A program made the position numbers and the translations under genes. Below the pieces are notes generated by a model that was not told the DNA's origin, searched no databases, and saw only the letters and a list, made by a program, of their open reading frames with translations. 28,780 nt of DNA, taken from a virus. Below, one piece after another: positions 9,064 to 26,516 of this stretch; the first letter of the stretch is position 1; every line of letters starts with the position of its first letter. The stretch covers positions 1 to 28,780 of the IMG/VR virus record IMGVR_UViG_3300009545_000016. One strand, 5' to 3'.

Positions 9064-9194
9064 CCCACGCCGAAACAGTCCTGGCCCTGTGCGACCGGTT
9101 CCACTGTTTGCCCAGCCAGCTGTACGCGGAAGACGCCGAACTGTTGCAAATGCTGCTGATCGTGAAGGAAGGAGGCGGCGACCATGGCGAATGA
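8635..9194 (+). CDS. Tail assembly chaperone, long form (gpGT-like) by -1 frameshift
   Basis: A ribosome moving back one base near 8976-8982 would join the short chaperone to an open frame that runs to TGA 9192-9194, giving about 186 residues. The heptamer there is CCCTTTG, read as C CCT TTG in the normal frame, which fits the X XXY YYZ pattern for -1 slippage, although it is not one of the strongest sites. The added part reads RKLNQWRAVGRVLDSD, then RELTHAETVLALCDRF and QLYAEDAELLQMLLIVKEGGG. It is protein-like and helical, as in other GT extensions. It has no plausible start of its own and overlaps the tape measure start by eleven bases. Confidence 0.7.
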
Positions 9195-11622
9195 GGTGTC
9201 CATCAAGGTCACCGCGAAGGACGAGACCGCCTCCACCCGGAACGTTATCCGCGCCGGGTTCGGTGTCACCGGAAAGGAAGCCGGAGACGCGTTCGGCACG
9301 GAACTGGACAAGGCAGCCAAGACCGGCGGCACGAAAGCCGGTGAGGATGTCGCCAAATCCACGAAGGACGCGGCGAAGAAAGAAGGCAGCTCCGGCGGCG
9401 GCTTGAACCCCATGTTGTTGGGGCTGGTCACGGGTGCGCCCGCGATCGGTGCCGCCGCCGGTGTTGCCCTGGTAGGTGGTCTCGGGGTCGGGCTGGTCGG
9501 CCTCGGGGCCACCGTCGCGGCACGCAACGACCAGGTGAAGGCGTCGTTCACGCTCCTGACCGCCGACCTGTCCCGTACCGCCGACTCGTGGGGGTCGGTG
9601 CTGGCGAAGCCGGCGGCGGCGGCGATCAACCAGGTCACCGCCGAGTTCGATCAGCTGAAGCCGGCGATCGGCAACGCCCTGGGCAACGTAGGCGGCCAGT
9701 TCTCGACCCTGACGGGCACCCTGACGGACTTCGCGTCCCGTGCCATGCCCGGCGTGGTCGCCGCGTCCAGCCGCCTTTCCCCGGTGTTTCAGGGCTTGCG
9801 TACGGACGCCGGCACGCTGGGCGCATCGGTCGGGGGCGCGTTCGACACCGTGTCTCGGCATTCGGATTCGTTGGGAACGTCGATCAGCTCCATTGAGCGG
9901 ATCATCGCTACGACCGTGAACACGGCCGCGCCTTTGGTGGCGCGGCTGTCCGACGAGTTCGCCCAGCACTCCGGCCAGATCGAAGCCGCCGTGTCGGCCG
10001 TGGGCTCCACGATCACCGCGTTGTCGTCCACGGCGCTTCCTGTGCTGGGCACGGCGATCGGCGGGGATCTGCGGCTGGTCACCGGGTTCCTGAACGCGTT
10101 GGGCCCAGCTGACGCTGTGCTGGGCGCGTTCGGTGGGGCCGCCTTGTCGGCGTACATGAACGTCAGGTTGCTGTCGAACCTGTCCGAGCCACTGTCCAAA
10201 ATGGCCGGTTCCCTCAAGAGCGCCGGCACCGAAGGAACCACGTTCGGCACGGTCACTACCAAGGCCGGAACCGCACTGGAAAAGGTCGGTGGCGCGCTCC
10301 CCGCGATCGGGATCGGCCTGACCGCCATCGGCATGGTGATGGACCTGGCGGCCCAGCACGGCCAGGACCTCGCCAAGGCCGGGGACGACGTCGCGAAGGG
10401 CTTGGAGGCTGGCGGCACGGCCGCCGCTGTGGCGCGTGGGCAGTTGGCCGGGTGGCAGCGGGACGCGGCGACCGCACAGAAGACGCTGGACGGCCTGACC
10501 TTGTCCACGACGATGAGCGTGGCGGCGGCCGGCCGGTTCGGCACCGCGTCCAGCCAGGCGAACGCGTCGCAGGCGAACGCGAATCAGACACTGTCGGATT
10601 CGAAGACGAAGATCCAGGAGGCGTTGGACAAGTACAACGCGTACACGGCCACGCTCGGGGTCGCGGCGATCACGTCCGACCAGTTGGCGGGCAAGACCGC
10701 GGTTTATGCGGACTCGGCTCAGAACGCGTCGTCCAACACGGCGCAGCTGAAGGCCACGATGGACACGCTGAATTCGGCCGCGTCGACAGCGGATCAGCGG
10801 ATTCAGGCGCTTCAAACAAGCTTGGCGCTCATGTCGGACAACGGCCTGGAGAAGGCACAGGACTACGCGGCGCAGACCAGCACCGCCCTGGACAACTTCG
10901 CCACCCAGGCCGCGACCGCCAAGGGCGCGACTTTCACCCTCAACGGCGAGTTGGACACCAACTCGGCGCGGGGTCGTGCTGTGCTGACCGTTCTTGAGCA
11001 AGCCCGCGCCGGGTGGGTGGGTCAAGCACAGGCCATGGCGGATGCTGGGCAGTCCACCGCTCAGATCAATGGGGCGTTGCAGAACAACCAGAACCAGCTG
11101 ATTGGTGTGTTGCGGGCCGCTGGGTTGACTCAGGATCAAATCAACGGCCTGATTCAGACGTACCACCTTGTTCCTGGTGAGATTTCCACGCGGGTGGACG
11201 CGGACACCAGTCCCGCTGTGGGCGCGGTTCAGAACCTGGTGCGCTACATCAACGGCACCCGCGCTGTGGTCACGGTCGACACCCAGACCGGCAACACCAC
11301 GTCGTTGAACTTCGGTGGTGGCCGGCGGGCGTCCGCGCATGGCGGGGTTGTGGGCGCGGCGGCGAATGGCCGGACGATCGGCTCCGACCTGATGTTGGTG
11401 GGGGAGCAGGGCCCGGAGCTGATTCGGGCGGCGGCCGGCTCCACGGTGATCCCGAACTCTGGCGTGTCGCAGGAGATCCGGAACGCGATGGGCGGCGGTG
11501 GGCAGGCGGCGGGGGTTCAGGTCAGTTTCGCTGGGGATCTGGATTCTCAGTTCGCGTCGCTGTTCATGAAGTTCCTCCGGTCCGGCTCCATCCAGATCAA
11601 GCAGCAGTACATTCAGAAGTGA
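9184..11622 (+). CDS. Tape measure protein
   Basis: At 812 residues this is the longest protein of the window, as expected for the protein that sets tail length; by the usual rule of about 1.5 angstrom per residue the tail would be near 120 nm. It is Ala/Gly/Thr-rich with long helical stretches. Residues about 76-113 form a hydrophobic Gly-rich segment (GLVTGAPAIGAAAGVALVGG), as often seen in tape measures. Near the C-terminus is MLVGEQGPELIRAAAGSTVIPN, a well-known tape-measure signature. Ribosome site GGAAGGAGG precedes ATG 9184. I see no lysozyme or peptidase domain in it. The 21 bases around the start match those of the gene at 3844. Confidence 0.92.
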   Translation: MANEVSIKVTAKDETASTRNVIRAGFGVTGKEAGDAFGTELDKAAKTGGTKAGEDVAKSTKDAAKKEGSSGGGLNPMLLGLVTGAPAIGAAAGVALVGGLGVGLVGLGATVAARNDQVKASFTLLTADLSRTADSWGSVLAKPAAAAINQVTAEFDQLKPAIGNALGNVGGQFSTLTGTLTDFASRAMPGVVAASSRLSPVFQGLRTDAGTLGASVGGAFDTVSRHSDSLGTSISSIERIIATTVNTAAPLVARLSDEFAQHSGQIEAAVSAVGSTITALSSTALPVLGTAIGGDLRLVTGFLNALGPADAVLGAFGGAALSAYMNVRLLSNLSEPLSKMAGSLKSAGTEGTTFGTVTTKAGTALEKVGGALPAIGIGLTAIGMVMDLAAQHGQDLAKAGDDVAKGLEAGGTAAAVARGQLAGWQRDAATAQKTLDGLTLSTTMSVAAAGRFGTASSQANASQANANQTLSDSKTKIQEALDKYNAYTATLGVAAITSDQLAGKTAVYADSAQNASSNTAQLKATMDTLNSAASTADQRIQALQTSLALMSDNGLEKAQDYAAQTSTALDNFATQAATAKGATFTLNGELDTNSARGRAVLTVLEQARAGWVGQAQAMADAGQSTAQINGALQNNQNQLIGVLRAAGLTQDQINGLIQTYHLVPGEISTRVDADTSPAVGAVQNLVRYINGTRAVVTVDTQTGNTTSLNFGGGRRASAHGGVVGAAANGRTIGSDLMLVGEQGPELIRAAAGSTVIPNSGVSQEIRNAMGGGGQAAGVQVSFAGDLDSQFASLFMKFLRSGSIQIKQQYIQK

Positions 11623-12153: not shown

Positions 12154-14466
12154 ATGGGCATCGCCGCCCGCGTGTCTGGATTCCAGAAACGCATGTCCAA
12201 CACGCCCGGCCCCCTCATGGGTGGCAGCACGCCGGGTGTGCCGATTCTGGTCGGCCAGTTCGGGAACCGGCTGTTCCTGGTGGTGGAGATTGCGTGGGGC
12301 GCGAATCTGGCGGCGAACTCGTCCACATGGCCATGGGTGGATGTCACGTCGGATGTTCAGATTGAGACGGACAAGAACATCACCATCAGCACCGGCCGTT
12401 CGGATGAGCACGCCACCACACCTCCGGCGACGTGCCGGTTCGTGCTGGACAACCGCGCGAACAGGTACAGCCAATCCCCCCTGGGGGCGTGGTGGCCGAA
12501 CGTGAAACGCGGCACCCCGGTTCGGGTGCGGCTGATTCTGGACAGTATCTCGTACACGGTGTTCGAGGGGAACGCGACCGGTTTCACGCCGGAATGGGAC
12601 ACGACCGGAAACTACGCGATCGCACATGTGGAAGCGGCGGGCTTGTTCCGGCGCGTGGGGCAGGGAAACGCGCCTCTTCAGTCGACAATGCGTTTGTACA
12701 CGCCGAGTGTTTCGGGGCTTCTTCAGTACTGGCCGATGGAGGACCAGTCGGGTGCCCCCGCGTTCGCGTCGGGCATTACCGGCGGTGTGCCGATGTCGTA
12801 CGTGTTGGGGTCGGATGTCATCACCCAGCCGAATGCGTCGTTCTCGTTGCATCAGGACACGACGTTTGTGTGTTCGGACGCGTTGCCGATCATGAACGGG
12901 TCGGCCTACGCCAGCATCCCGACGTACACCGGCACCGAGAAGTGCCAGGTCCGGATGCTGATCGACTGGCCGCAGGCGGCGAACGCGCTTGCGGACGGCT
13001 CGACCGTGTTCAGCCTGTACATGACCGGCACCATCGGCCGCTACGACGTCAACTATCACACCGGCGGTTCCCTCACGATCGCGATCTACGATCAGGGCGG
13101 AGCGAAGATTGCGGAAACCGGCTCGATCGCGCTCATCCTGAACGGCATTCCGCTGTGCGTCCAGCTGTCCATCTCGTACAACGCTGGCCTGTCCGCGACA
13201 GCGTTCACCCTGTACACAATGGGCACGGGTGGCGGGTCGCCCACGGTGAACGGGTTCACGTCAGGAACCACAAACGTCGGTGTCGCCACCTCGTTGGTGT
13301 TGTTGCCCGGCAACGTGAACACGCACGTCGGTATTGGGCACGTCACGGTGCAGTCCACCACCACGGACCTGACGGAAATGTCCGGGCCCGTCACCGCGTT
13401 CGACGGGGAGACGGTCCAGGCGCGAATCAACCGGTTGTTGGCGTTGGTGAACGTGGAGACCGCCACCTACAACAGCGACGGTGTGCACACGTCGAAGCTG
13501 ATGGGGCCGCAGCGGATCGACACGTTGCTGAACCTGTTGCGGGAGGCTGAGCAAACCGAACCTGGTGTGCTGTTCGACGGCTTGAACGGGTCGCTGTCGT
13601 TCTATTCACGCACGGCGGAGGAGAACCAGGCGGCTGGCCTCACTATCGACGCCACGAGTGGCATGATCGCGCCTCCGTTCCAACCGCTGGATGACGATCT
13701 TCAGTTGCGGAACAGGTGGGTGGTGTCGCATCGAAACGGATCGTCGGTGACGTTTCAGGACACCACGGGCCCGCTCGGGGTGAACACGGTCGGCTTGTAC
13801 GGCGACTCGGTGACGGTGAACGTCAACCAGAACCCCAGCGGCGTGTACACCGGGCCATTGGGGGTGAAGGCCCTCGCGGATCAGGCGGGGTGGCGTGTGC
13901 ATGAGAACACGATCGAGGGGTACCGGTACCCCTCGTTGAATCTTGCGTTTCACCATTCGCCCACGCTGTTGTCGCCATGGCTGACGCTGGGTCTTCTGGG
14001 ACGTGTGGACGTGACGAACGTTGCTTCCGTGTACACGCAGATGCCGAACACGTCTGTGTCGCTTCTGGTGCAGGGCATGACGTGGACCATCACCCAGTTC
14101 CTGTTGTCGGTGTCGGCGAACTGCTCCCCGTACGAACCGTGGCGGGTGGTGCAGTTGGCACAGACTTCGGGGGACACCGCCGAGTTCCTGTGCCATCTCG
14201 ACAGCACGGGGAGTTCGTTGGCGGCGGCGGCGAACGCGGGCGACACATCGCTTTCGGTGCAGACGACCAGCGGTCTTCCGTTGTGGTCGACCGACGCTGA
14301 TGATGTGCCGTTCGTGGTGAAGGTCGGCGGTATCCCAGTGACAGTGACGGCGGTATCCGGGTCCAGTTCGCCGCAAACATTCACGGTTACCGGGGCAACA
14401 ATGACGAAACAGCTGGCGGCCGGAAGCGGTGTCACTGTGTGGCAGGAAACTGCTCTGACCCTGTAA
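12154..14466 (+). CDS. Large minor tail protein with LamG-like insertion
   Basis: The 770-residue protein starts at ATG 12154 with ribosome site CGGAGGTGAG. Residues about 30-165 resemble distal tail or baseplate-hub domains (VPILVGQFGNRLFLVVEI, CRFVLDNRANRYS). Residues about 180-430 (LLQYWPMEDQSG, then a long beta section to VGIGHVTVQST) look like a concanavalin A/LamG-type carbohydrate-binding domain. The rest (LARINRLLALVNVE-like helix, then LLNLLREAEQTEPGVLFDGL and a long beta region) matches the hub-type proteins of actinophages. The likely job is tail tip structure and binding to host surface sugars. No peptidoglycan hydrolase motif was seen. It is the best receptor-binding candidate here. 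Confidence 0.75.
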   Translation: MGIAARVSGFQKRMSNTPGPLMGGSTPGVPILVGQFGNRLFLVVEIAWGANLAANSSTWPWVDVTSDVQIETDKNITISTGRSDEHATTPPATCRFVLDNRANRYSQSPLGAWWPNVKRGTPVRVRLILDSISYTVFEGNATGFTPEWDTTGNYAIAHVEAAGLFRRVGQGNAPLQSTMRLYTPSVSGLLQYWPMEDQSGAPAFASGITGGVPMSYVLGSDVITQPNASFSLHQDTTFVCSDALPIMNGSAYASIPTYTGTEKCQVRMLIDWPQAANALADGSTVFSLYMTGTIGRYDVNYHTGGSLTIAIYDQGGAKIAETGSIALILNGIPLCVQLSISYNAGLSATAFTLYTMGTGGGSPTVNGFTSGTTNVGVATSLVLLPGNVNTHVGIGHVTVQSTTTDLTEMSGPVTAFDGETVQARINRLLALVNVETATYNSDGVHTSKLMGPQRIDTLLNLLREAEQTEPGVLFDGLNGSLSFYSRTAEENQAAGLTIDATSGMIAPPFQPLDDDLQLRNRWVVSHRNGSSVTFQDTTGPLGVNTVGLYGDSVTVNVNQNPSGVYTGPLGVKALADQAGWRVHENTIEGYRYPSLNLAFHHSPTLLSPWLTLGLLGRVDVTNVASVYTQMPNTSVSLLVQGMTWTITQFLLSVSANCSPYEPWRVVQLAQTSGDTAEFLCHLDSTGSSLAAAANAGDTSLSVQTTSGLPLWSTDADDVPFVVKVGGIPVTVTAVSGSSSPQTFTVTGATMTKQLAAGSGVTVWQETALTL

Positions 14467-15367: not shown

Positions 15368-15712
15368 TCAGTAGCAGCGCAACGCCAGCGTCAGCAGCAC
15401 CGCGCCCGGATCTACGGTCCCCTGCACGCCGTAGCCCTGCATCCGGGCCAGCTCCGCCCGGTACTCCGTGTACAGCGCGGACCCGGGGGCGTTGCCGTCG
15501 TTGACGAACTCGTCGAACGGCTTGGTCTGGGCACCGGAGCACCACGCCGGCTGTGCTGCTGTCGGCGTGGTGCTGGCCGTCGGCTTCGCCTGGGCCGTGC
15601 CGTGCTGGCCGAAGCCGAGGCCCAACACGAACGCGACCGCGCACGCCAGGGCGGCGGCCCCGATCCATTTGAGCGGCCGGAACTGGCTGGTGTGGGTGAT
15701 CACGTGAGGCAT
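15368..15712 (-). CDS. Small exported or membrane-anchored protein
   Basis: The 114-residue protein has a positively charged start (about 15 residues) and a hydrophobic segment near residues 16-35 (WIGAAALACAVAFVLGLGFG). This is a signal peptide or signal anchor. After a Thr/Pro/Ala linker comes a short domain with two Cys (PAWCSGAQTK and LALRCY) that could form a disulphide bond outside the cell. Ribosome site AAAGGACC is well placed before ATG 15712. It is transcribed after the TraB-like gene but separated from it by 173 bp of repeats. The function is unknown; a cell-surface role in transfer, or an unrecognised lysis role, are both open. Confidence 0.65.
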   Translation of the reverse strand: MPHVITHTSQFRPLKWIGAAALACAVAFVLGLGFGQHGTAQAKPTASTTPTAAQPAWCSGAQTKPFDEFVNDGNAPGSALYTEYRAELARMQGYGVQGTVDPGAVLLTLALRCY

Positions 15713-15743
15713 GACAGGGGGTCCTTTCGATCATGGAAGAGAC

Positions 15744-15851
15744 GGAGCAGAAGGCGGAGCACCACGCCGAACGGGGAGCACATGCTCCACGGGGTGCTCC
15801 GCCCACTGCACCGCCCCTGACCTGAGGTGGAGCAGCGGAGCAGACGGAGCA
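15744..15851. repeat. GGAGCA repeat cluster after the TraB-like gene
   Basis: Six direct copies of GGAGCA start at 15744, 15756, 15775, 15829, 15837 and 15846; two inverted copies (TGCTCC) start at 15783 and 15795. The copies at 15744, 15837 and 15846 share CGGAGCAGA. The middle of the cluster folds as nested inverted repeats. The cluster is in the gene-free gap between the TraB-like gene and the small exported protein. A cis-acting transfer locus (clt) is one candidate role. Confidence 0.65.
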
Positions 15852-15885
15852 GAGCGGGCCGGGAAACCCGCCCTCAGCCCCCGTT

Positions 15886-18117
15886 TCAGCCATCCCCGTC
15901 GGTGATGGCCTGCTGCTCCATCGCGTGCCGGACGTCGTCGCCTGCCACGTACCGCTGGCCCGCCTCACCGTTGACGCGGCCAATCTGGATTTCCACCTCG
16001 AAGACACGGAGCCCGGCGGCGAGATCCTGGGGACCCCACTTGCCGTAGGTGTCCGGCCACTTCTCCTTGAGCCGTTGGAGGATGTCCGCCGACTTGACCC
16101 GGTCCACGCCCTCCATGACCCTGGCGGCGTCGGCCAGAAGTTCCCGCGCGGCCACCGGCTCCGGTGCCGGCGTGTCCTGCACACCGAACTTGCGGCGCAA
16201 CTCCACCGACCGGCGAATGACCTCCGCCGCCTCCACACCGTTCACGTAGTGCGTGCGGACGATCGTGAACGCCTGCCCCGCCGGGATGTCCTCCACCTCA
16301 CCCGTCGCGACCACCGTGCCGGCATCGCGTCCGGGACGGAGATCCTGCGGGCGTGCGCCCCGGTCGGCGGCGTCGGCGAGGATCATCTTCGCCGTCTCCG
16401 CGTTGGGCACGTTCAACGCGGCCCGCACGTGCGCGCCCTCCCGGACCTGAACCGGAAGCGTGCGGTTGTCGGGGCGTTGGGTTGCCTGGATCAAGTGGAT
16501 GTTCACAGCGCGTGCCTGGTCGTGCAGCCGCTTCGCCGCACGCCACGCCCTGGCGTCGTCCTTCGTGCCGCCGATCGGGTGTGGCGCGGCGTAGAGGATC
16601 TGGCACTCATCCACGATCACGTAGATCGGGTGGAACCCGGATCCCTTCTTCCGCGACAACTCCCGAGTCAACGTCAGGTTCTTCTCGGTCTTCACCTTGT
16701 AGCGGCGGCCCATCTCCGCCACCGCCCACTCCAACATCGACGCTGTGGCGTCGGCGTCCTCATCGGCGCTGCCCTCGATCAGCACACGCGCCCGATCCTT
16801 GAACATGGACCAGTCCCCATCGCCCTTCAAGTCGGAGATCAGCAACTCCACCGTCGGGTCCAGGGCTAGTCCCAGCGCCAACAAGCGGACCGTGGTTGTC
16901 TTGCCCTGCTTGGACGTCGCGCCCACAAGCCAGTGCTTCTGCAACATGCCCACGCTGACCTGCTCCGACCGCATGGTGACGCCCCATGGCAACCGGTCCC
17001 GCCACACATCGACCACACCGTCATGCAGCAACGGCCACGTCGGGGCGGGCCGGTCCATCGCGCCCTTGTCGGCGATCCACAGGTCCAGAACACGGGCGTC
17101 CTGGTCCGGGTCACGCTGGGGCCACACTTCGTGACGGTGCCGGTACAGGTTGCCGGCCAGACGCTCCACAGTGGTCGAACCCAGCACGTCAGCGGCCATC
17201 ACGCCAAGCGGCAACCGCACCTGGCAGTACGTTCCGCCGCCCTGCTCCCGGGGCGGCACAACGAACTCCAGTGGCACACCCGCCGCGATGGCCTTCGACA
17301 AGGCGGTGATCTTCACCGCCGCCAGGGCGGCCGTGATCGCATCGGCGGTGATCACGATGTCCTGCACACGTTCCGCCGGGGACGCCAACCACATCGGCAC
17401 CGACACCGCGCGCCGGCCCTCCCACCACGCCGTGAACAGCCACGCCGGCACGAACGCGTAGAACGCGACATGGATCAGGAACGTCAGCACCATCGCGCCG
17501 ATGCCCCACAGGTCACCCAACAGGCCCCACCACGACGCCCAGTCCAGACCGAGACTCGGAGTCAGCTCGAACGCCACACCGAGAACCGTCAGGATCCCGG
17601 CCAGCACCACCACCGCGACCAGCACACCCAGGCACGCGCGGGTAACCGTCGTGGGAAGGTTCCGCATCCGGGCGTGCCGGGCCTCACGGGCGTGATGCAA
17701 CCGGTCCTGCCACAGGGCGAGTGCTTCCACATCCCCGGCGGCGCGGGCGTTGCGGATCTGCTCCCGGAAAACGCCGTGCGTCGCGGCGGCGAATACCCGC
17801 CGACCCCACACCACGTGTCCGTAGGAAACGGTGAACCCGTGCCGAACAATGGGCCGCACAATGCGGCCGGCAATACGAGTGCCCTTGTGCTGGCGAACGC
17901 TGGCGACAGTGGTCGCCAGCCGCTGTCCACGGGCCTTGCGGAATTCGTTCTCGTCGACGATTTCGGCGTCGTAGATGGGGCCGCTGTCCACCGCTGGCGG
18001 TGCTGGCGTCGCCAGCTCCTCCGAGCTGTCGCCAGCTGTCGCCAGCTCACCACCAGCCTGGACGGTGGGGAACGGATAGACGCGCCCCAACTCCTCGTTC
18101 TCGACCGGGTCCACCAT
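15886..18117 (-). CDS. FtsK/SpoIIIE-family DNA translocase, TraB-like
   Basis: The 743-residue protein resembles the hexameric ATPases that move double-stranded DNA between mycelial cells in actinomycete conjugation. Two membrane segments lie at about 161-185 and 203-233. The motor domain follows with Walker A GATSKQGKTT (about 399-408), Walker B IYVIVDECQ (about 498-506) and the FtsK-like ATQRPDNRTLP. The C-terminal 85 residues (VKSADILQRLKEKWPDTYGK, WGPQDLAAGLR) look like a winged-helix domain, which in TraB reads 8-bp DNA repeats. ATG 18117 follows the DUF2637 stop by one base; GTG 18126 or 18129 would add three or four residues. It lacks relaxase partners, as expected for this transfer type. 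A role in packaging or segregation cannot be excluded. Confidence 0.88.
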   Translation of the reverse strand: MVDPVENEELGRVYPFPTVQAGGELATAGDSSEELATPAPPAVDSGPIYDAEIVDENEFRKARGQRLATTVASVRQHKGTRIAGRIVRPIVRHGFTVSYGHVVWGRRVFAAATHGVFREQIRNARAAGDVEALALWQDRLHHAREARHARMRNLPTTVTRACLGVLVAVVVLAGILTVLGVAFELTPSLGLDWASWWGLLGDLWGIGAMVLTFLIHVAFYAFVPAWLFTAWWEGRRAVSVPMWLASPAERVQDIVITADAITAALAAVKITALSKAIAAGVPLEFVVPPREQGGGTYCQVRLPLGVMAADVLGSTTVERLAGNLYRHRHEVWPQRDPDQDARVLDLWIADKGAMDRPAPTWPLLHDGVVDVWRDRLPWGVTMRSEQVSVGMLQKHWLVGATSKQGKTTTVRLLALGLALDPTVELLISDLKGDGDWSMFKDRARVLIEGSADEDADATASMLEWAVAEMGRRYKVKTEKNLTLTRELSRKKGSGFHPIYVIVDECQILYAAPHPIGGTKDDARAWRAAKRLHDQARAVNIHLIQATQRPDNRTLPVQVREGAHVRAALNVPNAETAKMILADAADRGARPQDLRPGRDAGTVVATGEVEDIPAGQAFTIVRTHYVNGVEAAEVIRRSVELRRKFGVQDTPAPEPVAARELLADAARVMEGVDRVKSADILQRLKEKWPDTYGKWGPQDLAAGLRVFEVEIQIGRVNGEAGQRYVAGDDVRHAMEQQAITDGDG

Positions 18118-18833
18118 GTCACTCACCACCCTTTTCGCCAGCCATCGCCAACAGGGCGAAACCGGACACCACCATCAGTCCGTCGACCACCAGCGGTCCG
18201 ACACCGGCCCCCAGGGGGCTGTAGCCCCAGGAGCCGAGCACATCGCGGATGTGGCCGTAGGAGATGACCGCCGATCCGAGGGCCACGGTGCCCGCGCCGC
18301 CGTACCGGGCGAAGCCCCACAGCGCCCCGCGACGCCACTGCACGCGGGACAGGACCTCAACGGAGATCAACAGGGCCAGTGGCCACACAGCGGCCCCGAC
18401 CTGCGCGAAGATGCTGGGTTGCCAGTCGGCGGGGGCGTGCTCCGGGACAATGCGTGCAGCGAGCACGTTCGCGGCGACGGACACGATCGACCCGAACGAG
18501 AACCCCATCCACGCGACGAACTTGCCGCCCCCTGGGGCGGCTCCATGCCCTGCCCCAGGGGTCTGTTTCGGGCTGGCGACAGCTGGCGACAGCGGTTCGC
18601 CAACGGTCGCCAGCTCGTTGGCCACCACCGTCTCCACGGGGCTGTCCACGGCCGGCACCGGGGGCACGGTGGCGGTGCTGTCGCCAGTGTCACCACCAGC
18701 GTTCGCCAGCTCGTCCGCCAGCTCCGCCAACGCCTTGCGGACCGCGTAGTCCGTGGCCCCGGTTGCCTTGACCAGAGCGGGCCGACCGGGCTCCGGTTCG
18801 CCGGCCTGGCGAGCGCTGGTGACCAGCTGGCGA
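17889..18833. repeat. TCGCCAGC octamer family within the translocase and DUF2637 genes
   Basis: Twelve exact copies of TCGCCAGC or its complement GCTGGCGA lie within 945 bp: starts at 17889, 17899, 17913, 18009, 18029, 18039, 18135, 18572, 18582, 18607, 18703 and 18826. Several are 10 or 20 bp apart. I noticed only two exact copies elsewhere (4447 and 9600). The copies are read in all three coding frames, so the DNA sequence and not the protein appears to be kept. Confidence 0.7.
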
Positions 18834-18871
18834 ACCTGGTCCGCCAGCACAGCGCCATTCGTCGCCGTCAT
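18119..18871 (-). CDS. DUF2637 membrane protein (plasmid-spread type)
   Basis: The 250-residue protein has a soluble, Ala/Pro/Thr-rich N-terminal part (1-135) with an HTH-like run (TGATDYAVRKALAELADEL). The C-terminal DUF2637 domain shows GFSFGSIVSVAANVLAA, WPLALLISVEVLSRVQW, and the ending GPLVVDGLMVVSGFALLA, giving about four membrane segments. DUF2637 proteins are typical neighbours of FtsK/TraB genes on actinomycete plasmids and AICEs, where spread (Spd) proteins help pass DNA along the mycelium. Start ATG 18871 was chosen because it overlaps the upstream stop (ATGA); a longer frame to 18964 would run over the neighbour. The stop lies one base before the translocase ATG, so both are probably made together. 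Confidence 0.85.
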   Translation of the reverse strand: MTATNGAVLADQVRQLVTSARQAGEPEPGRPALVKATGATDYAVRKALAELADELANAGGDTGDSTATVPPVPAVDSPVETVVANELATVGEPLSPAVASPKQTPGAGHGAAPGGGKFVAWMGFSFGSIVSVAANVLAARIVPEHAPADWQPSIFAQVGAAVWPLALLISVEVLSRVQWRRGALWGFARYGGAGTVALGSAVISYGHIRDVLGSWGYSPLGAGVGPLVVDGLMVVSGFALLAMAGEKGGE

Positions 18872-19056
18872 TTCGTGTTCCCCAATGCCTGAGCGAATGT
18901 CACGAGGCTGTTGGTGACGTGGTGCCCGTCGGGGGTCATCACGATCACCGCAATCAGCGCGCATACCAGGGCGACTTTCACAATGAAATGTGCCCGGTAT
19001 TTGATGGCGGCGGCGAGAAAACCGCCGCCGACCACCATCAACAAGAACCCGGTCAT
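18868..19056 (-). CDS. Small membrane protein, Spd-like
   Basis: This 62-residue protein has two hydrophobic segments (GFLLMVVGGGFLAAAI near 3-18 and VKVALVCALIAVIVM near 26-41) and a short soluble tail. It is coupled to the DUF2637 gene by a four-base overlap and follows the previous gene by one base. Tiny membrane proteins at this point are common in the spread operons of actinomycete conjugative elements. It probably sits in the membrane with the translocase or DUF2637 protein; a direct partner is not shown by the sequence. Confidence 0.7.
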   Translation of the reverse strand: MTGFLLMVVGGGFLAAAIKYRAHFIVKVALVCALIAVIVMTPDGHHVTNSLVTFAQALGNTK

Positions 19057-19057
19057 G

Positions 19058-19264
19058 TCACACCCGGTCCGTGTACGTCCGGGTCTGTGCCGACAGGTCG
19101 GCGCGCATCAAGGTCAACTCGGTGGTGAGGACACCCAACGTCACCAGGGCCAGCCGTGCGGCGTTCTGGTCGTTCTCGCGGGGCGCGTTCGGGTCGCGGG
19201 ACTCCCACATCGCAAGGGCGTCGCCGAGTCCGTCCACCAGGGACCGGAGTTCGCGGATGCTCAC
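19058..19264 (-). CDS. Small soluble helical protein in transfer operon
   Basis: The 68-residue product starts at GTG 19264, overlapping the previous stop codon (GTGA). Longer upstream reading in the same frame (to 19414) is a shadow of the neighbour. The sequence is helical: SIRELRSLVDGLGDALAMWE and ARLALVTLGVLTTELTLMRADL. No motif was recognised. It sits in a tight run of four overlapping or adjacent small genes ahead of the translocase and is likely co-regulated with them. Confidence 0.65.
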   Translation of the reverse strand: MSIRELRSLVDGLGDALAMWESRDPNAPRENDQNAARLALVTLGVLTTELTLMRADLSAQTRTYTDRV

Positions 19265-19479
19265 TGGTCGCCTCCCAGCCACGTGCAGGCGAACACCTGG
19301 GAGCCGGTCTCCGAGAAACCGATCGGGCGGTGGGGCACGGCAACCAGGAGGTAGGAGACGCCGCATACGGCGCAGGACAGCCCGTCGGCCTGTTCCGGCG
19401 TCAGGTTGTGCCACACCCGGTTCGGGTTGGCTTCCGCGTCACGGAAGGTAGCGGCGTGCGTGACAGAATGTGCAGTCAT
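19261..19479 (-). CDS. Small Cys-rich protein, first gene of transfer operon
   Basis: The 72-residue protein has CAVCGVSYL in its middle and a Cys near the C-terminus (QVFACTWLGG), with several His in the N-terminal part. This pattern of short zinc-binding-like proteins is frequent in actinomycete mobile elements. Start ATG 19479 has ribosome site GAGAGG, which lies in the loop of a 6-bp hairpin (19482-19499). As the first gene of the minus operon it may be a regulator or a small transfer accessory; no function is established. Confidence 0.65.
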   Translation of the reverse strand: MTAHSVTHAATFRDAEANPNRVWHNLTPEQADGLSCAVCGVSYLLVAVPHRPIGFSETGSQVFACTWLGGDQ

Positions 19480-19606: not shown

Positions 19607-21034
19607 ATGACGGTGACCGCACACAGTTACGCGAGGATTTCCACTCGCAAACAGCGCTCCATCGAGCGCCAGCACACGGACAACACGGCAGCGGCCACCG
19701 AACACGGCTGGGCCGTCGGCCGCCGCTACGAGGACACCGGCAGTGCATCCAGCTACTCACAGAAACCACGCGGTGACTTTCAACGACTCATGGCCGACCT
19801 ACGTGCCGGAAACATCCCCTCACAGGACGTTCTGATCCTGTGGGAGTCCAGCCGGGGATCCCGCGAACAAGTCGAATGGGGAACCCTGCTAAACCTGTTG
19901 CGGGACAACAGGATCGGCGTACACGTCACCAGCCACCGCCGCACCTACGACCTGACCAACCCGCGTGACCGCCGGTCCCTGGATGAGGACGGCGTCGACT
20001 CCGCGTACGAGTCCGGGAAGACCAGCGGCCGGGTGCACATCGCGGCCGTGGAGAACGCCCAGACGGGCCGCCCCTGGGGTCCGGTGCCGTTCGGCTACAC
20101 GCGCGTCTTCGATCCCGTCACCGGCCGCCTGATCGGCCAGGAGAAGGACCCCAAGCGCGCCCCGATCGTCGCGGAACTGTTCGCACGGCTGGAAGCCGGC
20201 CACTCCCTGCGGTCCATCGCCGCCGACTTCGCCGAACGCGGCATCACCCGCGCGCCCCGTGAAGGACGCCCTGAGGGGCCGATCTCTGCGGCCCAGCTGC
20301 GCAACATGGCGATGCAGGCCGGGTACGCCGGCATCCGGGCGTCGGACACGATCGGGCAGACGTTCGACGCGGTGTGGCCGGCGATCGTCACCCCACGCCA
20401 ATACCACGCCGTGCACCGGATCCTGACCGACTCGGCACGGAAGACGTCCCGTCCCGGCCGGGGCAAGTGGTTCCTGTCGATGATCGGGAAGTGCGGCGCG
20501 GACGACTGCGACAGCCCCCTGTCCGTCCGGTACCGACGCGGCCCCCGCTACCGGTGTCACGAGAAGTCCCACGTCCTGATCGACATGGAGGAACTGGACC
20601 AGGTCGCGGAGACCGTGATCCTGGACTACCTGAACCGGAACGACGTGGTGGAAGCCCTGTCGGCGGCGTGGTCGGCGGAAGATCAGCGGCTGGCCACGAT
20701 CCGTGACCAGTTGGACACAGTGCGGGCGGAGTTGCGGGAGTTGGCGGCCGGGGTCGGCGCGGGGAAGGTCACGTTGGACTTCGCGGCGATGGCGGAGCCG
20801 GGGGTTCGCCGCCGCATCAAGGACTTGGAGGCGCAGGAGCGGGACGCGGCGTTGCCGGCCGTGTTGCGGGGCCTGGTCGGTGTCGGGCTGACGCGGGCGC
20901 AGTGGCGGGCGAAGCCGATGAGCACGCGCCGGGAGGTGGCCCGGTTGCTGTTGTCGCCGAAGTACTTGGGGGAGTTGCGGGTGGGTCGTGTGGATGAGTT
21001 GCGGATCCGGTTCGACCGGGCGGCGGTGGCGTGA
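19607..21034 (+). CDS. Large serine recombinase (site-specific integrase)
   Basis: The 475-residue protein catalyses integration of the circular element into the host chromosome between attP and attB. The N-terminal catalytic domain begins SYARISTRKQ, where Ser12 is the likely nucleophile, followed by the conserved ILWESSRGSRE and the DGVDSAYESGKTSGRV helix. The recombinase domain starts near 150 (GPVPFGYTRV). A zinc-ribbon-like part has KCGADDCDSP with a later CHEK. A coiled-coil stretch lies at about 345-420. The C-terminal part ends in REVARLLLSPKYLGELRVGR. The length is at the small end for this family. Candidate attP lies directly upstream and a 50-residue gene overlaps its end. Confidence 0.93.
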   Translation: MTVTAHSYARISTRKQRSIERQHTDNTAAATEHGWAVGRRYEDTGSASSYSQKPRGDFQRLMADLRAGNIPSQDVLILWESSRGSREQVEWGTLLNLLRDNRIGVHVTSHRRTYDLTNPRDRRSLDEDGVDSAYESGKTSGRVHIAAVENAQTGRPWGPVPFGYTRVFDPVTGRLIGQEKDPKRAPIVAELFARLEAGHSLRSIAADFAERGITRAPREGRPEGPISAAQLRNMAMQAGYAGIRASDTIGQTFDAVWPAIVTPRQYHAVHRILTDSARKTSRPGRGKWFLSMIGKCGADDCDSPLSVRYRRGPRYRCHEKSHVLIDMEELDQVAETVILDYLNRNDVVEALSAAWSAEDQRLATIRDQLDTVRAELRELAAGVGAGKVTLDFAAMAEPGVRRRIKDLEAQERDAALPAVLRGLVGVGLTRAQWRAKPMSTRREVARLLLSPKYLGELRVGRVDELRIRFDRAAVA

Positions 21035-21821: not shown

Positions 21822-22100
21822 ATGGCCAGCGGACTCAACCGCGAAGACCAGGCGCGGATCATCATCAACACCGCGCACTCCGCCACCAGCGGCGGATGGG
21901 CATGGGAACCCACCATGCACAACGGCAAGCCCGTGATCAACCCGGGCTCCACCGTCGAAATCACCGTCGACCTCGTCGCCGCACTCGCACACGCCACCGG
22001 CATCAACGGCCACAAATACCCCTGCCGCCTCGACGCCGTACAAAACGCCGTAGCCGTCCTTCGCGGCCAGGCACAATTCATTGGACGTGACGCCGCGTGA
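21822..22100 (+). CDS. Small protein coupled to replication helicase
   Basis: The 92-residue protein reads ASGLNREDQARIIINTAHS, then a region with GKPVINPGSTVEITVDLVAALAHATG and a helical C-terminus (RLDAVQNAVAVLRGQAQ). The family was not recognised. Ribosome site GGAAAGG precedes ATG 21822, and the stop overlaps the helicase GTG start (22097), so the two are made together. A replication accessory role, for example origin binding or helicase loading, is an inference from this coupling. Confidence 0.65.
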   Translation: MASGLNREDQARIIINTAHSATSGGWAWEPTMHNGKPVINPGSTVEITVDLVAALAHATGINGHKYPCRLDAVQNAVAVLRGQAQFIGRDAA

Positions 22101-23977
22101 GCACCGCCGAGAACGTGGACAACACCAGCGACACCGTACAGACGCCACAATCGAAGACTCCACTCATGGACGCCTGCAAAGCCAAGAAGGCGGCAGGGGA
22201 GTACGTAAGTGGCTCGGAGTACCGGGCGGCCTACGAGGAAGAACGGGAGGCGAACCAAGCGGAATACAAGGCTAGGCAAGCAGCCCAGAAACCGAAGAAG
22301 AACACCAAGGCCACCAAGCCGGAAGTGTCGGACGAAGAGAAGGCGCAACTCGACGCCCTTCTGTCCAAGATCAAGACCACCGGCGACATGAAGTGGGACG
22401 ACGAACTTCATTACGGCTGGTCCGACGACGCCACCGCCAAGCGCCTCGCCGAAGTCCAGGCACACAACCAGGGCGGCAACACCCTCGCCTGGGACCCCAC
22501 CGCGCCCAGCAGCACACGCGGCGGCGACAACGGAGCATGGCGCACCTGGGACGGCAACCGGTGGAAGCTCGACACCAACAACAAGGAAGGCCGCAAGCAC
22601 GGCAAGACCGTCGCCCACGCCTGCCGCCAACGCTACGCCGAATGGGTCGCCTGCCTGACCGACAAGTCATTCGCAAAACTCGAAAAGAGCGCACAGGAAT
22701 ACGTCAAGAACAAGGTCTCGGCCTGGGGTGGCTACTCCATGAAGGTCGGCAACACCGGCGGCATCGCCGGCGGCCTCACACTCCTTCAAAGCGAACCCGG
22801 CATGACCCCCGACGTTGAATGGGACAACGACCCCACCCTGCTGGCCACGCCCAACGGCACCATCGAACTCAATGACGGCTACGGCGTCCAATTCCACCAG
22901 GCACGCCGCGAAGACTGGCTCACCCGCTCCACCAGCGTTGGAATCACGCAGGACGACTACCTGAACGGATACGTGCCAACTCGATTCGAAAAACTCCTTG
23001 AAGAAACACTTCCGAGTGAAGATGTGCGCCGCTACTTCCAAAAGGTCATGGGATACATTCTCATGGGCGAGAATCCCAAGCGGAAGTTTATTGTTCTGCA
23101 CGGGCCGACCAGCTCCGGTAAGACCACCATCATGCGCATCATCGCTGACGTGCTCGGGGAATACGCAAGCGACTTCAGCCTCTCACTGTTCCGCGCGAAC
23201 AAGGACGAAAAAGCACGCCCTGACATCATTCGCGCAATGAACGCGCGCATGATCTACGCCAGCGAAACATCACAACGATGGGAACTGGACGCCGACCAAA
23301 TCAAGCGCATGACCGGCGGCGACAAGGTCAGCGCCCGCCTCAACTACGGCAACGACTTCACTAGCCGCCAACCCGCATTCACTCCCGTCCTGGCCACCAA
23401 CCAAGCCCCACGCATCACCGGATCCGACGAAGCCATCTGGCGGCGACTCATCGTCTTCGGCTTCGACAACACCATCGAGGCACACCGCGAAGACCCTGGA
23501 CTTGTCACCCGCGTCGTCCGTGAAGAAGGCCCCGCCATCCTCGCGTGGCTCCTGGACGGATGGGACATGTACAACAACGGTGCCCTGATCGAAGACGGCT
23601 GGGACAACAACAGGGCCGACACCTACGTTGAACCCGGACTCGACGACATGCCCGCCGACGTCGTCACCGCCACCATGAAGTTCCGGAGCAACCTGACCCT
23701 CGAAGACCAGTGGGTCAGCGAGCACACCATCCGCAACGAAGGCACGCCACCCGTCACAAGCGCCGCCGTGTACGGCGCGTACACGGCATGGTGCGAGGCC
23801 AACGGCTTCAACCCGAACAACTCCAAGGTGCTGTCCCCTGCCCTCAACCGTGCGGGGTACTCGCTCAAGAAGCACGGTGGCGTGTGGTGCCGGTTCAACC
23901 TGGAGCTGTCCAAGGAAGCAATCGATGCCGCACACCGCCCACGCGGTGGCGTGTCGCTGGACGACACCGACGAGTAG
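22097..23977 (+). CDS. SF3 helicase, P4/D5 type, replication initiator
   Basis: The 626-residue protein carries a D5-like section (about 240-330, with LLATPNGTIELNDG and MGYILMGENPKRKFIVLHG) and a superfamily 3 helicase core. Walker A is GPTSSGKTT (336-344), Walker B-like ARMIYASE (about 383-390) and sensor ATNQAPRI (near 433). SF3 helicases of phages and plasmids unwind the origin and start replication. The N-terminal 220 residues are charged and lack the primase active site (DxD/sxH type) usual in full P4-type proteins, so priming would need a host or other protein. The start is GTG, coupled to the 92-residue gene. A palindrome array directly follows. Confidence 0.87.
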   Translation: MSTAENVDNTSDTVQTPQSKTPLMDACKAKKAAGEYVSGSEYRAAYEEEREANQAEYKARQAAQKPKKNTKATKPEVSDEEKAQLDALLSKIKTTGDMKWDDELHYGWSDDATAKRLAEVQAHNQGGNTLAWDPTAPSSTRGGDNGAWRTWDGNRWKLDTNNKEGRKHGKTVAHACRQRYAEWVACLTDKSFAKLEKSAQEYVKNKVSAWGGYSMKVGNTGGIAGGLTLLQSEPGMTPDVEWDNDPTLLATPNGTIELNDGYGVQFHQARREDWLTRSTSVGITQDDYLNGYVPTRFEKLLEETLPSEDVRRYFQKVMGYILMGENPKRKFIVLHGPTSSGKTTIMRIIADVLGEYASDFSLSLFRANKDEKARPDIIRAMNARMIYASETSQRWELDADQIKRMTGGDKVSARLNYGNDFTSRQPAFTPVLATNQAPRITGSDEAIWRRLIVFGFDNTIEAHREDPGLVTRVVREEGPAILAWLLDGWDMYNNGALIEDGWDNNRADTYVEPGLDDMPADVVTATMKFRSNLTLEDQWVSEHTIRNEGTPPVTSAAVYGAYTAWCEANGFNPNNSKVLSPALNRAGYSLKKHGGVWCRFNLELSKEAIDAAHRPRGGVSLDDTDE

Positions 23978-24023
23978 CCGACCTGCTGGACGTATCCCAA
24001 ACGGATACGTCCAGCAACGTCCA

Positions 24024-24054
24024 CCCCCCGTTTCCGCAGGTCACGGGGGGTTTT
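24024..24054 (+). terminator. Intrinsic terminator of replication operon
   Basis: CCCCCCG (24024-24030) and CGGGGGG (24044-24050) form a GC-rich stem followed directly by TTTT. The 13-base loop is the motif B sequence TTTCCGCAGGTCA, so the terminator and the repeat are combined. Confidence 0.75.
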
Positions 24055-24171
24055 CTATGTTCAAACCAAGATCAACAACTGGACGTATCCAAACCGGATA
24101 CGTCCACGCGTTTCCGCAGGTCAGAGGCGGTTTTTGCACAGCCGTGGACGTATCGGACGTATATTTTCACA

Positions 24172-24185
24172 CCTACGCGTGTAGG
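24172..24185. repeat. Small perfect hairpin near array centre
   Basis: CCTAC and GTAGG enclose GCGT. It lies in the central part of the palindrome array between the two tandem half-site clusters. Confidence 0.5.
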
Positions 24186-24220
24186 AGGGCGGATCCGTCG
24201 CTGTGCCGGACACGAACACG

Positions 24221-24240
24221 CCCCCGTGCGCGCACGGGGG
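24221..24240. repeat. 20-bp perfect palindrome near array centre
   Basis: CCCCCGTGCG is followed at once by its complement CGCACGGGGG. The palindrome is about 20 bp to the right of the array axis and has no counterpart on the left side. It may extrude as a cruciform or bind a dimeric protein. Confidence 0.6.
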
Positions 24241-24305
24241 ACAGTTTCAGTCGAAAATACGTCCGATACGTCCACCACGTCGTGGATTAAGGGTCTGACC
24301 TGCAA

Positions 24306-24348
24306 AAAGGTGGTGGACGTATCCGTTTGGGATACGTCCACCACCTTT
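24306..24348 (-). terminator. 19-bp palindrome, terminator for the minus-strand gene
   Basis: AAAGGTGGTGGACGTATCC (24306-24324) faces its exact complement (24330-24348) over GTTTG. Read on the minus strand the stem is followed by a run of five T, so it can terminate transcription of the gene at 24646-24440. It is also the longest of the motif A palindromes. Confidence 0.65.
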
Positions 24349-24439
24349 GCCCCACTCCGCGCTCCCGCGTGTGCCCTGACCTGCGGAAACACGGCCCTGG
24401 ACGCCGTGGACGTATCCAAACCGGATACGTCCACCGGCG

Positions 24440-24752: not shown

Positions 24753-25457
24753 ATGACCGGTGAACAGCTCCGCGAACTCCGAGAAGCCGCCGGCATCGGG
24801 CTCCGCGAAATGGCGCGGCGCACCTTCTACTCCGCCGCGTGCCTATCCATGGTCGAGACCGGTCACCGGGTGCTGACCGACGATATCCGCGCTGCCTACG
24901 AACGCGTGCTCGGTCTTGAACTGCGAGGTGACACCGTGCAACGACGCGACTTCCTGTGGCTTTTGGGGGTAGCCGGCGCGAACGCGACGGTCGCCACCGA
25001 CCTGGCCGCCTCGATCGCTGGCGGCGACGCCGGCCCGCTGGCCACCGTGCAGACCAGCCACGGCATCGACCACGCCCTAGCCGCCCTCACCGACCGGGCC
25101 ACCGTCCGTGTCCTGCACCGCTGGGCCGCCGACGAGCCGGACCCGGTGTTGCGGGTCAACGCCACCGGGATCCTCGCGAAGCTGCCCGGCCAGGCCGAAG
25201 CGGAGACCGTTGCTGAACTTCTCGGCCGCGACAGTGACGTCCGGTTGCGGTACGTGACCGCCGTGGTTGCCCGCGTGTGCGGCATCACCTGGGCCAACGC
25301 CGCCCTGATCGCCGCCGGCCAGGAGATGTTCAGCAAGCCCCGCACCGCCGCCCAGTTGCTGATCAAGGAAGTGGTGAACCCGCGTGACGCGGGCGCACGG
25401 TGGTGCTCCGCCGCTGTGCTGCAAACCCTTGCCCCCCGACTCGGAGGAACCGCGTGA
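24753..25457 (+). CDS. XRE-family HTH regulator with large C-terminal domain
   Basis: The 234-residue protein has an N-terminal XRE-type HTH (residues 1-50: GEQLRELREAAGIGLREMAR, then SAACLSMVETGHRVLTDD). The helical, Ala/Leu-rich C-terminal part (about 90-234: LADRATVRVLHRWAADEPDP-like, ILAKLPGQAEAETVAELLG) is similar in character to actinomycete regulators found on integrative elements. Ribosome site AGGTG precedes ATG 24753; earlier in-frame GTG codons have no such site. It is the second HTH protein of the element, and the C-terminal domain may sense a signal. Its stop overlaps the next gene's GTG (25454). Confidence 0.8.
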   Translation: MTGEQLRELREAAGIGLREMARRTFYSAACLSMVETGHRVLTDDIRAAYERVLGLELRGDTVQRRDFLWLLGVAGANATVATDLAASIAGGDAGPLATVQTSHGIDHALAALTDRATVRVLHRWAADEPDPVLRVNATGILAKLPGQAEAETVAELLGRDSDVRLRYVTAVVARVCGITWANAALIAAGQEMFSKPRTAAQLLIKEVVNPRDAGARWCSAAVLQTLAPRLGGTA

Positions 25458-25783
25458 TCGTGATCGACGTCCGCAACGGTGAGCTGATGGGCGCGTTGGC
25501 CATGGAAGCCCGGGAACGGGGCCTGATGAACGCCGCGATCGTGTCCCTGATCGGCGGTGTGGATGCCTTCACCGTGTCGACGATGCCGGCCGACGACGCC
25601 ACCAAGGACGTGATCACCGCCTACGAGGTGCCGGCCGAGATGCACGGCTCCGGGGAGATTCGGGGTGGTGCTGTGCATGTGCACGCCACGTTCGGTGTGG
25701 AGGGTGACCGGGCTGTTGTCGGTCACGTGCATGAGGCGCACATCGGGACGCACTTCGCGCGGGCCTACCTGATCCCGCTGTAA
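25454..25783 (+). CDS. PPC/DUF296-domain protein
   Basis: The 109-residue protein matches the PPC (plants and prokaryotes conserved, DUF296) domain. Marks are GALAMEARERGLMNAAIVSLIGGV, and at the end GAVHVHATFGVEGDRAVVGH and VHEAHIG, a His-rich strand pattern of the trimeric fold. Plant versions are joined to AT-hook DNA-binding domains; bacterial single-domain versions are mostly uncharacterised, and this one has no AT-hook. Start GTG 25454 overlaps the HTH gene stop and has ribosome site GGAGG. Coupling to the regulator suggests a regulatory partner role, which is an inference. Confidence 0.8.
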   Translation: MIVIDVRNGELMGALAMEARERGLMNAAIVSLIGGVDAFTVSTMPADDATKDVITAYEVPAEMHGSGEIRGGAVHVHATFGVEGDRAVVGHVHEAHIGTHFARAYLIPL

Positions 25784-25797
25784 CCGACCAGTCACTG

Positions 25798-25825
25798 AGC
25801 CGGCCCGATCCGTCGGGCCGGCTTT
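25798..25825 (+). terminator. Intrinsic terminator after regulator operon
   Basis: AGCCGGCCCGA (25798-25808) pairs perfectly with TCGGGCCGGCT (25813-25823) over a four-base loop and is followed by TT. This is a strong GC-rich stem that separates the regulator genes from the late promoter. Confidence 0.85.
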
Positions 25826-25840
25826 CGTCGCGCCCAATTA

Positions 25841-25881
25841 CGGAACTGGCCAGTTCCGGAACGCTCCAGTTCCGTTATGAT
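25841..25881 (+). promoter_or_regulatory. Late promoter region with two 18-bp operators
   Basis: CGGAACTGGCCAGTTCCG (25841-25858) is a perfect palindrome. CGGAACGCTCCAGTTCCG (25857-25874) repeats its ends and overlaps it by two bases. A good -10 box, TATGAT, follows at 25876-25881, so a dimeric regulator bound here would cover the -35 region. The 90-base leader to ATG 25972 contains smaller dyads. This region probably controls the whole packaging and structural operon. Confidence 0.65.
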
Positions 25882-25971
25882 GTGTGTAGAGAGCACGGAT
25901 CCCAGAGACGGCCGACACCCCCGAACCCGGGGTTAACCAGACGGCCTTAAACGCGTGAGGGGAGGGCCGTG

Positions 25972-26424
25972 ATGCCTGTTTCACGGTCCTCCGCCGCTCG
26001 TGAAGCGAGCGAGGAACGCAAGGCTGAAATCATGCGCCTTCGTCGTGAGGGTCATTCTTTCGCGGCGATCGGCGAGAAGTTCGGTATTAGCACCCCGCGT
26101 GTTCACCAGATTTGGCGGAAAGCGCTTTCCGACATTCCGGTTCCGGAGATTGAGGCGCTTCGGGCCGAGTCCGCGGAACGCTTGGACGACGTCCTGAGCA
26201 GGGCGTATGCGGTCCTGGCGGACCTGAACCCGCTTGTGCAGATGGGTAAGGAACTTCCGTACAAGGACCAGCAACTTCTGTTGGCGACCTTGAAGGAAAT
26301 CCGTCAGACCGAGGCGCAACGCGCCCGCCTGTTCGGCCTGGACGCACCGGTGAAAACCGAGGTGTCCGGCACCCAGAACGTTCGCTACGAAGTGGTGGGC
26401 GTGGATTTGGAGGCGTTGTCGTGA
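25972..26424 (+). CDS. Small terminase subunit
   Basis: The 150-residue protein has an N-terminal HTH (EERKAEIMRLRREGHSFAAI followed by KFGISTPRVHQIWRKAL) and a helical C-terminal part (LATLKEIRQTEAQRARLFGL). This is the layout of small terminase subunits, which bind viral DNA at the packaging start and hand it to the large subunit two genes downstream. Ribosome site GAGGGGAGGG precedes ATG 25972; a GTG directly before it (25969) is an alternative start. It is first in the late operon. A free-standing transcription factor is a less likely alternative given its place. Confidence 0.8.
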   Translation: MPVSRSSAAREASEERKAEIMRLRREGHSFAAIGEKFGISTPRVHQIWRKALSDIPVPEIEALRAESAERLDDVLSRAYAVLADLNPLVQMGKELPYKDQQLLLATLKEIRQTEAQRARLFGLDAPVKTEVSGTQNVRYEVVGVDLEALS

Positions 26425-26516
26425 CGCCCCGGAACGACCAGATCGACACGGCGTTGATCGCCGCGATCCTGGCCGTAGATGTGCTGTTGCTGATCGTGTT
26501 CTGGGGGCGGCTGTGA
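26421..26516 (+). CDS. 31-residue membrane microprotein between terminase genes
   Basis: An open frame from GTG 26421 to TGA 26514-26516 reads MTPRNDQIDTALIAAILAVD and then VLLLIVFWGRL. It has one clear membrane segment (about 11-29) and a charged N-terminus. Its start overlaps the small terminase stop, and its stop overlaps the GTG start of the large terminase, so both junctions are coupled. The coupling and the strict hydrophobic pattern support a real gene. Function is unknown; a membrane-acting role in lysis or superinfection control is possible. Confidence 0.6.
   Translation: MTPRNDQIDTALIAAILAVDVLLLIVFWGRL

Follow-up and report, generated by a model that had tools for sequence, protein, structure and literature searches.

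A TraB-type conjugation module within the genome of a temperate actinomycete siphovirus

Closest described systems

Phages and conjugative elements are commonly regarded as separate. The element described here, IMG/VR virus record IMGVR_UViG_3300009545_000016, holds full head, tail and packaging genes beside a conjugation pump (TraB), genes for its partners and a candidate target site, all within 28.7 kb. The whole record of 28,780 nucleotides was analysed and is called the window below.

The closest described transfer systems are of two kinds. The first are Streptomyces plasmids of the pSVH1/pIJ101 type, with which the window shares an FtsK-type TraB, spd-like genes upstream of it and a short-repeat array directly 3′ of traB (in pSVH1). 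It differs from them in that the module is carried by a complete tailed-phage genome, in the repeat, which is GGAGCA and not GACCCGGA, and in the replication gene, which is a D5 primase and not a rolling-circle Rep. The second are the actinomycete integrative and conjugative elements (AICEs), which hold the closest TraBs and have the same layout of integration, replication and tra genes, with a serine recombinase allowed. However, the window has virion genes, and its D5 primase is unlike the RepSA, DUF3631 or Prim-Pol proteins of AICEs. Judged by the families used to recognize AICEs (Ghinet et al., 2011, PMC3218068), the window has the Tra family PF01580 and the integrase family PF07508 but no AICE-type Rep, as its replication open reading frame (ORF) is of the D5_N/primase type and has DUF3631 and Prim-Pol both absent from its family matches.

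A precedent for combining phage and conjugation genes is the Streptomyces plasmid-phage pZL12 (phage ZL12), which has been published and, according to papers that cite it, pairs phage genes with conjugal transfer (PMC3583192, PMC4487206). Unlike the window, pZL12 measures 90 kb and carries Tra3-like and SCP1-like genes and ParAB according to its sequence record, which gave no match to the window TraB (at 1e-5) or to a plasmid TraB (at 0.01). PhiNon1 has been described as reminiscent of pZL12 (PMC5431353). Two circular Pseudonocardia records, pPaSha2 (CP052773) and P. broussonetiae unnamed3 (NZ_CP053567), have head-tail genes and a DUF2637-TraB pair on one closed circle like the window, but belong to other phage types and other TraB lineages. 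Mycobacterial and Bacillus phages also encode FtsK-like translocases, which are likewise FtsK/HerA-type ATPases on a phage; the protein of one of these, prophiGD51-2, differs from the window TraB in that the TraB profile does not match it at 1e-6 and PF01580 matches it weakly. As to a possible phage-plasmid nature of the window, iterons stand beside the primase gene and there are circular relatives, and no partition gene was recognized. In reviews and surveys of phage-plasmids, conjugation functions are found mainly in derivatives that lost their phage genes (PMC10879196, PMC12977533). A literature search, covering few subscription papers, returned no account of TraB modules with a clt locus recurring in actinobacterial phages.

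The TraB protein and its ancestry

The pump gene, traB (15886–18129, minus strand), encodes an FtsK/SpoIIIE-type double-stranded DNA translocase (PF01580, E=2e-8). The first-pass annotation of the window, made from the letters alone, had read it as a TraB/FtsK-type translocase with Walker A and Walker B motifs, membrane segments and a winged-helix end, and all of these features were recovered with PF01580, a transmembrane scan and AlphaFold/Foldseek, the membrane segments and the winged helix as predictions. The Walker A motif is GATSKQGKTT and the Walker B motif IYVIVDEC. Two or three hydrophobic segments make up the predicted N-terminal membrane part, followed by the motor (approximately residues 260–650) and a predicted C-terminal winged helix (approximately 664–746), in which a helix-strand-helix-helix-hairpin pattern is predicted with high confidence. 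The protein matches known FtsK structures by profile. An AlphaFold model built on 43 sequences reached a mean pLDDT (the model's own confidence score) of 85; an earlier run with two sequences (pLDDT 36) was discarded. In Foldseek this model retrieved the E. coli and Pseudomonas FtsK motors first (E=4e-15), then TcpA of pCW3, with packaging ATPases far behind.

Searches place the protein among conjugative elements. The window TraB had no match at 1e-5 in 50,697 phage records (INPHARED), nor did a plasmid TraB used as query at 0.01, while 43 plasmids, pSVH1 among them, were matched by the window TraB. TraB-like matches occur in 288 of 390 genomes from the family of Pseudonocardia pini (at most two candidates scored per genome), the twelve closest being 49–63% identical. 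The genes surrounding the closest isolate relatives are of AICE type (int, xis, primpol, DUF3631, RRQRL-Zn), and no portal or capsid gene was detected within 40 kb of them; the capsid profile used, PF05065, does give a match in the window itself.

In a tree of 43 TraBs, the window protein falls inside the AICE TraB clade (support 95/94), and the nine phage TraBs require nine label changes. A larger tree with 36–37 phage-borne and 36 other TraBs requires 13 label changes, at least 11 of them forced; it omits the TraB-like protein L147 of genome G395, which is too divergent. The phage-only translocase clade that the first-pass annotation had named as a possible outcome of such searches and trees is therefore rejected, since phage-borne TraBs are scattered and that of the window lies with those of AICEs. 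By sequence, the window TraB is of the plasmid/AICE kind and is nested among the TraBs of actinomycete conjugative elements. One big clade of the larger tree consists mostly of phage TraBs, and there is therefore inheritance within phages as well. In this tree the window TraB is sister to that of L157, a phage contig with another tail type, which speaks against a reading in which phage TraBs never pair with one another.

A candidate target array behind traB

Immediately 3′ of traB, a non-coding gap contains eight copies of GGAGCA, six on the plus and two on the minus strand (15735–15855), which form a candidate clt locus or array of TraB recognition sequences (TRS). Each TraB locus was scanned for dense short repeats, and the scan of the window covered its whole circle. 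No other 6-mer cluster of the circle is as dense; the array has eight copies per 150 bp against a maximum of six in 100 simulated circles. The same scan on pSVH1 finds GACCCGGA/CCCGGA at the end of traB, where GACCCGGA is the published recognition sequence of the pSVH1 TraB (PMC5133688).

The GGAGCA array is shared by the window and one other of 35 TraB loci, namely L047 in genome G226, with seven copies at almost the same spacing. The winged helix of this TraB is also the one most similar to that of the window (62%; the next is 44%), whereas the motors are 48% identical; TraBs whose motors are closer (up to 73%) differ in both winged helix and repeat. In the alignment of both loci, 47 of 48 repeat bases are identical versus 75 of 126 elsewhere (Fisher p=4e-8). 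Array similarity tracks the winged helix with the motor held constant, and not the reverse (partial Mantel r 0.30–0.36, p=0.0005). Motor, partner and matched candidate target thus appear to travel together, because the shared array coincides with the most similar winged helix and its repeats are kept in 47 of 48 bases. The candidate array adds evidence for the transfer function that the first-pass annotation had proposed.

Arrays lie behind traB in 10 of 28 portal-bearing phage loci and 22 of 39 other loci, compared to 11 of 221 control gene ends. Among AICE-type loci (L041–L060, L157–L224), traB is commonly followed at once by a short-repeat array. For the AICE pSAM2 no clt has been reported (PMC9513070), and traB-flanking arrays may help AICE research too. 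A cluster of GCTGGCGA, with 12 of its 14 copies at 17889–18833, was rejected as a clt, as it codes for repeated ELA/ELAT peptides in the TraB N-terminus and the DUF2637 protein; in the relatives scanned, it did not rank with the most over-represented words. Locus L050 (G216:C8:82000-101999) holds 18 copies of TCACGTCC in 20 kb; before approximately 8.5 kb most are on the plus strand, and after 10.1 kb all are on the minus strand. These copies point toward the traB region, resembling a polar motif of the KOPS type.

Recurrence in other phages

The combination of a phage block with DUF2637-TraB recurs in isolates and in metagenomes. It is found in pPaSha2 and unnamed3, closed circles of which the two lengths are 41.9 and 27.4 kb, and in the isolate prophages G181 and G306. 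A chimeric assembly, which the first-pass annotation had considered for the window, is rejected because these four relatives carry the same combination.

The G181 prophage is genuinely related to the window phage, judging by the identity of its terminase (69%), capsid (47%) and major tail protein (56%). In G181, the TraB-DUF2637 pair sits at the position and on the strand seen in the window, directly behind the tail genes, but the G181 TraB falls in a different AICE clade. Similarly, G306 and P. broussonetiae have approximately 70% of head and terminase sequence in common, with unlike TraBs. In both pairs related phage parts go with differing TraBs, which argues that the pump is exchanged while its slot or partner is kept.

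In IMG/VR, scanned with sub-clade TraB alignments, approximately 65 contigs contain TraB. A portal exceeds the Pfam cut-off in 28 of the 50 contigs examined, and in several TraB adjoins terminase, portal, protease and capsid genes. Three portal-bearing contigs were read further; one has a tape measure and a tail protein, and one a tail protein. That TraB-type modules recur in prophages of actinobacteria is new here; among the INPHARED phages, none was detected at the limits used. Two IMG/VR ‘viral’ contigs, L175 and L180, resemble AICEs (TraB, primpol, xis, integrase), and none of their proteins was matched by the structural reference proteins used.

MOB typing labels these records ‘non-mobilizable’. 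TraB transfer requires no relaxase, and relaxase-keyed typing therefore overlooks TraB elements.

Proposed function and alternative explanations

The explanation that we favour, and consider fairly probable, is that a temperate actinomycete siphovirus took over an actinomycete-type conjugation module as a second, non-lytic route of spread besides virions. The mechanism is probably that of Streptomyces TraB (PMC5133688), on which it is modelled. TraB, a membrane-anchored FtsK-like pump, would use its winged helix to recognize the GGAGCA array that follows traB and pump the phage genome, as circular double-stranded DNA, into a neighbouring hypha at sites of contact. Alternatively, together with the DUF2637 (Spd-type) protein and the small membrane proteins, it would drive the genome through hyphal cross-walls. 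Either way, the prophage would gain non-lytic spread in addition to virions. Computation shows the identity of TraB, its predicted fold and its origin among conjugative-element proteins, as well as the conserved array and the recurrence of the module in other phages; binding, pumping and transfer by TraB, and a role for it during lysogeny, are what we infer by analogy. The location of the operon on the strand opposite to the late genes agrees with expression independent of the lytic genes. The two putative spread routes suggested at first pass, virion release and mycelial transfer, are supported by the trees, the closed relatives and the candidate clt. Only slightly better than even, in our estimate, are the chances of a broader claim, that of a recurrent class of actinobacterial phages combining virions with TraB mycelial transfer, each with its own match of winged helix and clt, and with TraBs repeatedly exchanged with AICEs and plasmids.

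Several points weigh against the proposed second route. Among phages of the window's type, TraB is accessory and the exception: of nine isolate prophages that share this type of terminase one has it, as do three of 43 IMG/VR capsid relatives (mostly fragmentary). The last step to the window TraB may have been phage-to-phage, given its sister L157. The correlation between winged helix and array could stem from joint inheritance, which contributes to it because they are adjacent DNA. The DUF2637 protein may not be equivalent to SpdB2; SpdB2 of pSVH1 has no Pfam match. A TRS array would equally serve the segregation of a plasmid prophage. Finally, the basis is wholly computational, and transfer is what we infer from it.

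The alternative that survives best, although we consider it unlikely, is spread within the mycelium only, with TraB and its partners moving the phage genome through the cross-walls of one infected or lysogenic mycelium and not between separate mycelia. One and the same TraB performs the intermycelial and intramycelial steps in known systems, and the sequence separates neither, which reduces the appeal of this restriction. Yet Spd proteins and TraB act at septa (PMC5133688), and the operon includes DUF2637 and small membrane proteins.

Somewhat less likely still is a role in segregation or dimer handling, in which the FtsK-like pump would prevent the loss of an extrachromosomal prophage from spores or from hyphae as they grow. 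The iteron-like candidate origin, the closed circular plasmid relatives L006 and L008, and the fact that no partition gene (ParA/ParB) was recognized among the ORFs scanned agree with such a role. Membership of the TraB family and the clt-like array are nevertheless typical of transfer systems, and the serine integrase permits integration.

That TraB has been reused for a phage function proper, i.e., packaging, DNA entry or lysis-lysogeny control, is very improbable. Its operon does lie directly behind the tail genes, likewise in G181, but the phage has its own terminase, most prophages of the same type do without TraB, the operon runs opposite to the late genes, and the TraB originates among those of AICEs. 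Least credible of all is a functionless passenger, a piece of an AICE that was inserted recently or is decaying: the mosaic distribution and the swapping of TraB lineages among related phages would suit it, but the ORFs are intact, dN/dS to AICE relatives is approximately 0.45, AICE int and rep are no longer present, the repeats are preserved though the surrounding DNA diverged, and G181 has a TraB in the same slot.

Should a virus indeed be able to cross septa without lysis, models of infection, lysogeny and gene transfer in a multicellular host would change. The small size of the system makes the two-route idea directly testable.

Partner proteins of the transfer operon

The six-gene minus-strand operon noticed at first pass is confirmed by ORFs, family matches and start positions. 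It opens with a gene for a 72-aa Cys-containing protein without a family (19261–19479). Next comes a protein of approximately 102–118 aa (19058–19414, probable start 19366), 39% identical over 105 aa to L047:12099-12455, which lies beside TraB in G226. A 62-aa protein with two hydrophobic segments follows (18868–19056), its stop overlapping the start of the DUF2637 gene (ATGA). The DUF2637/Spd-like protein (18119–18871; start 18964 is also open) has an N-terminal helix-turn-helix (HTH)-like part and, by transmembrane scan, membrane helices. The match to PF10935 is weak: the window protein scores 18.4 bits and stays below the Pfam cut-off of 22.8, whereas the G181 orthologue, 48% identical over 241 aa, passes with 30.2. 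The ‘zinc-like’ character once given to small proteins of the operon finds no support in any family match. Behind traB and the array lies the last gene, for a protein of 114 aa that has a single hydrophobic segment at its N-terminal end (15368–15712; 54% over 48 aa to L047:8790-9053 of G226).

The window's cassette is also found in L047 (G226 C1, approximately 11.55 Mb), with the 114-aa protein, clt array, TraB, DUF2637 and 118-aa protein; the G226 genome gave no portal, capsid or matching terminase match. DUF2637-type proteins also occur in window-type phages with no TraB found nearby (L062:4817-5560, L109:14377-15057).

Phage genes and other features of the element

An exact 123-bp direct terminal repeat in the record, which is the window in full, gives a circle of 28,657 bp, and the portal ORF is continuous across the joint. 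Pfam and PHROGs matches, together with this repeat, bear out the first-pass view that terminase, portal, capsid, tail and integrase genes lie on one circle with the operon. The hallmark set of a temperate siphovirus (Caudoviricetes) is present, with terminase, portal, protease, capsid, tail proteins and integrase. A filamentous actinomycete is the most likely host, with Pseudonocardiaceae favoured. A capsid-forming satellite (cfPICI-like, having head but no tail genes) was rejected, as the window and the TraB phages L226 and L227 have tail genes.

The late genes (terminases, portal, protease, capsid, head-tail proteins and tail genes) are on the plus strand. They comprise a probable small terminase (25969–26424), identified by position, phrog_645/HTH matches and 29–37% identity to equivalents in relatives; the large terminase (26513–27853; phrog_2, E=2e-29); the portal (phrog_2662), running from 28121–28780 across the joint into 1–738; a ClpP-like head maturation protease (738–1931; phrog_2976, E=1e-87; PF00574); and the HK97-type major capsid protein (1928–3295; phrog_10; PF05065, E=3e-52). 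The tail genes encode the major tail protein (7064–7810; phrog_9522), a presumed tape measure of 812 aa (9184–11622), so called from size, position and weak matches to phage relatives, and a tail protein (12154–14466; phrog_5313, E=2e-106). After the operon, which separates tail genes and integrase, follow, also on the plus strand, the serine integrase (19607–21034; PF00239, PF07508, phrog_95) and the D5-type primase/helicase (22097–23977; PF08706, phrog_1156, E=6e-94). No endolysin or holin was recognized among the ORFs of the whole element scanned with Pfam or PHROGs.

Directly behind the D5 primase gene lies a candidate origin (23986–24433), with four 28-nt palindromic iterons GGACGTATCC-N-GGATACGTCC plus half-sites; GGACGTAT, in this iteron region, tops the over-represented 8-mers of the element. 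A protein with a PCC domain (PF03479), uncommon for phages, is encoded at 25400–25783. Upstream of the small terminase gene, at 25820–25880, inverted operator-like repeats GGAACTGG/CCAGTTCC form a possible control site for the late genes.

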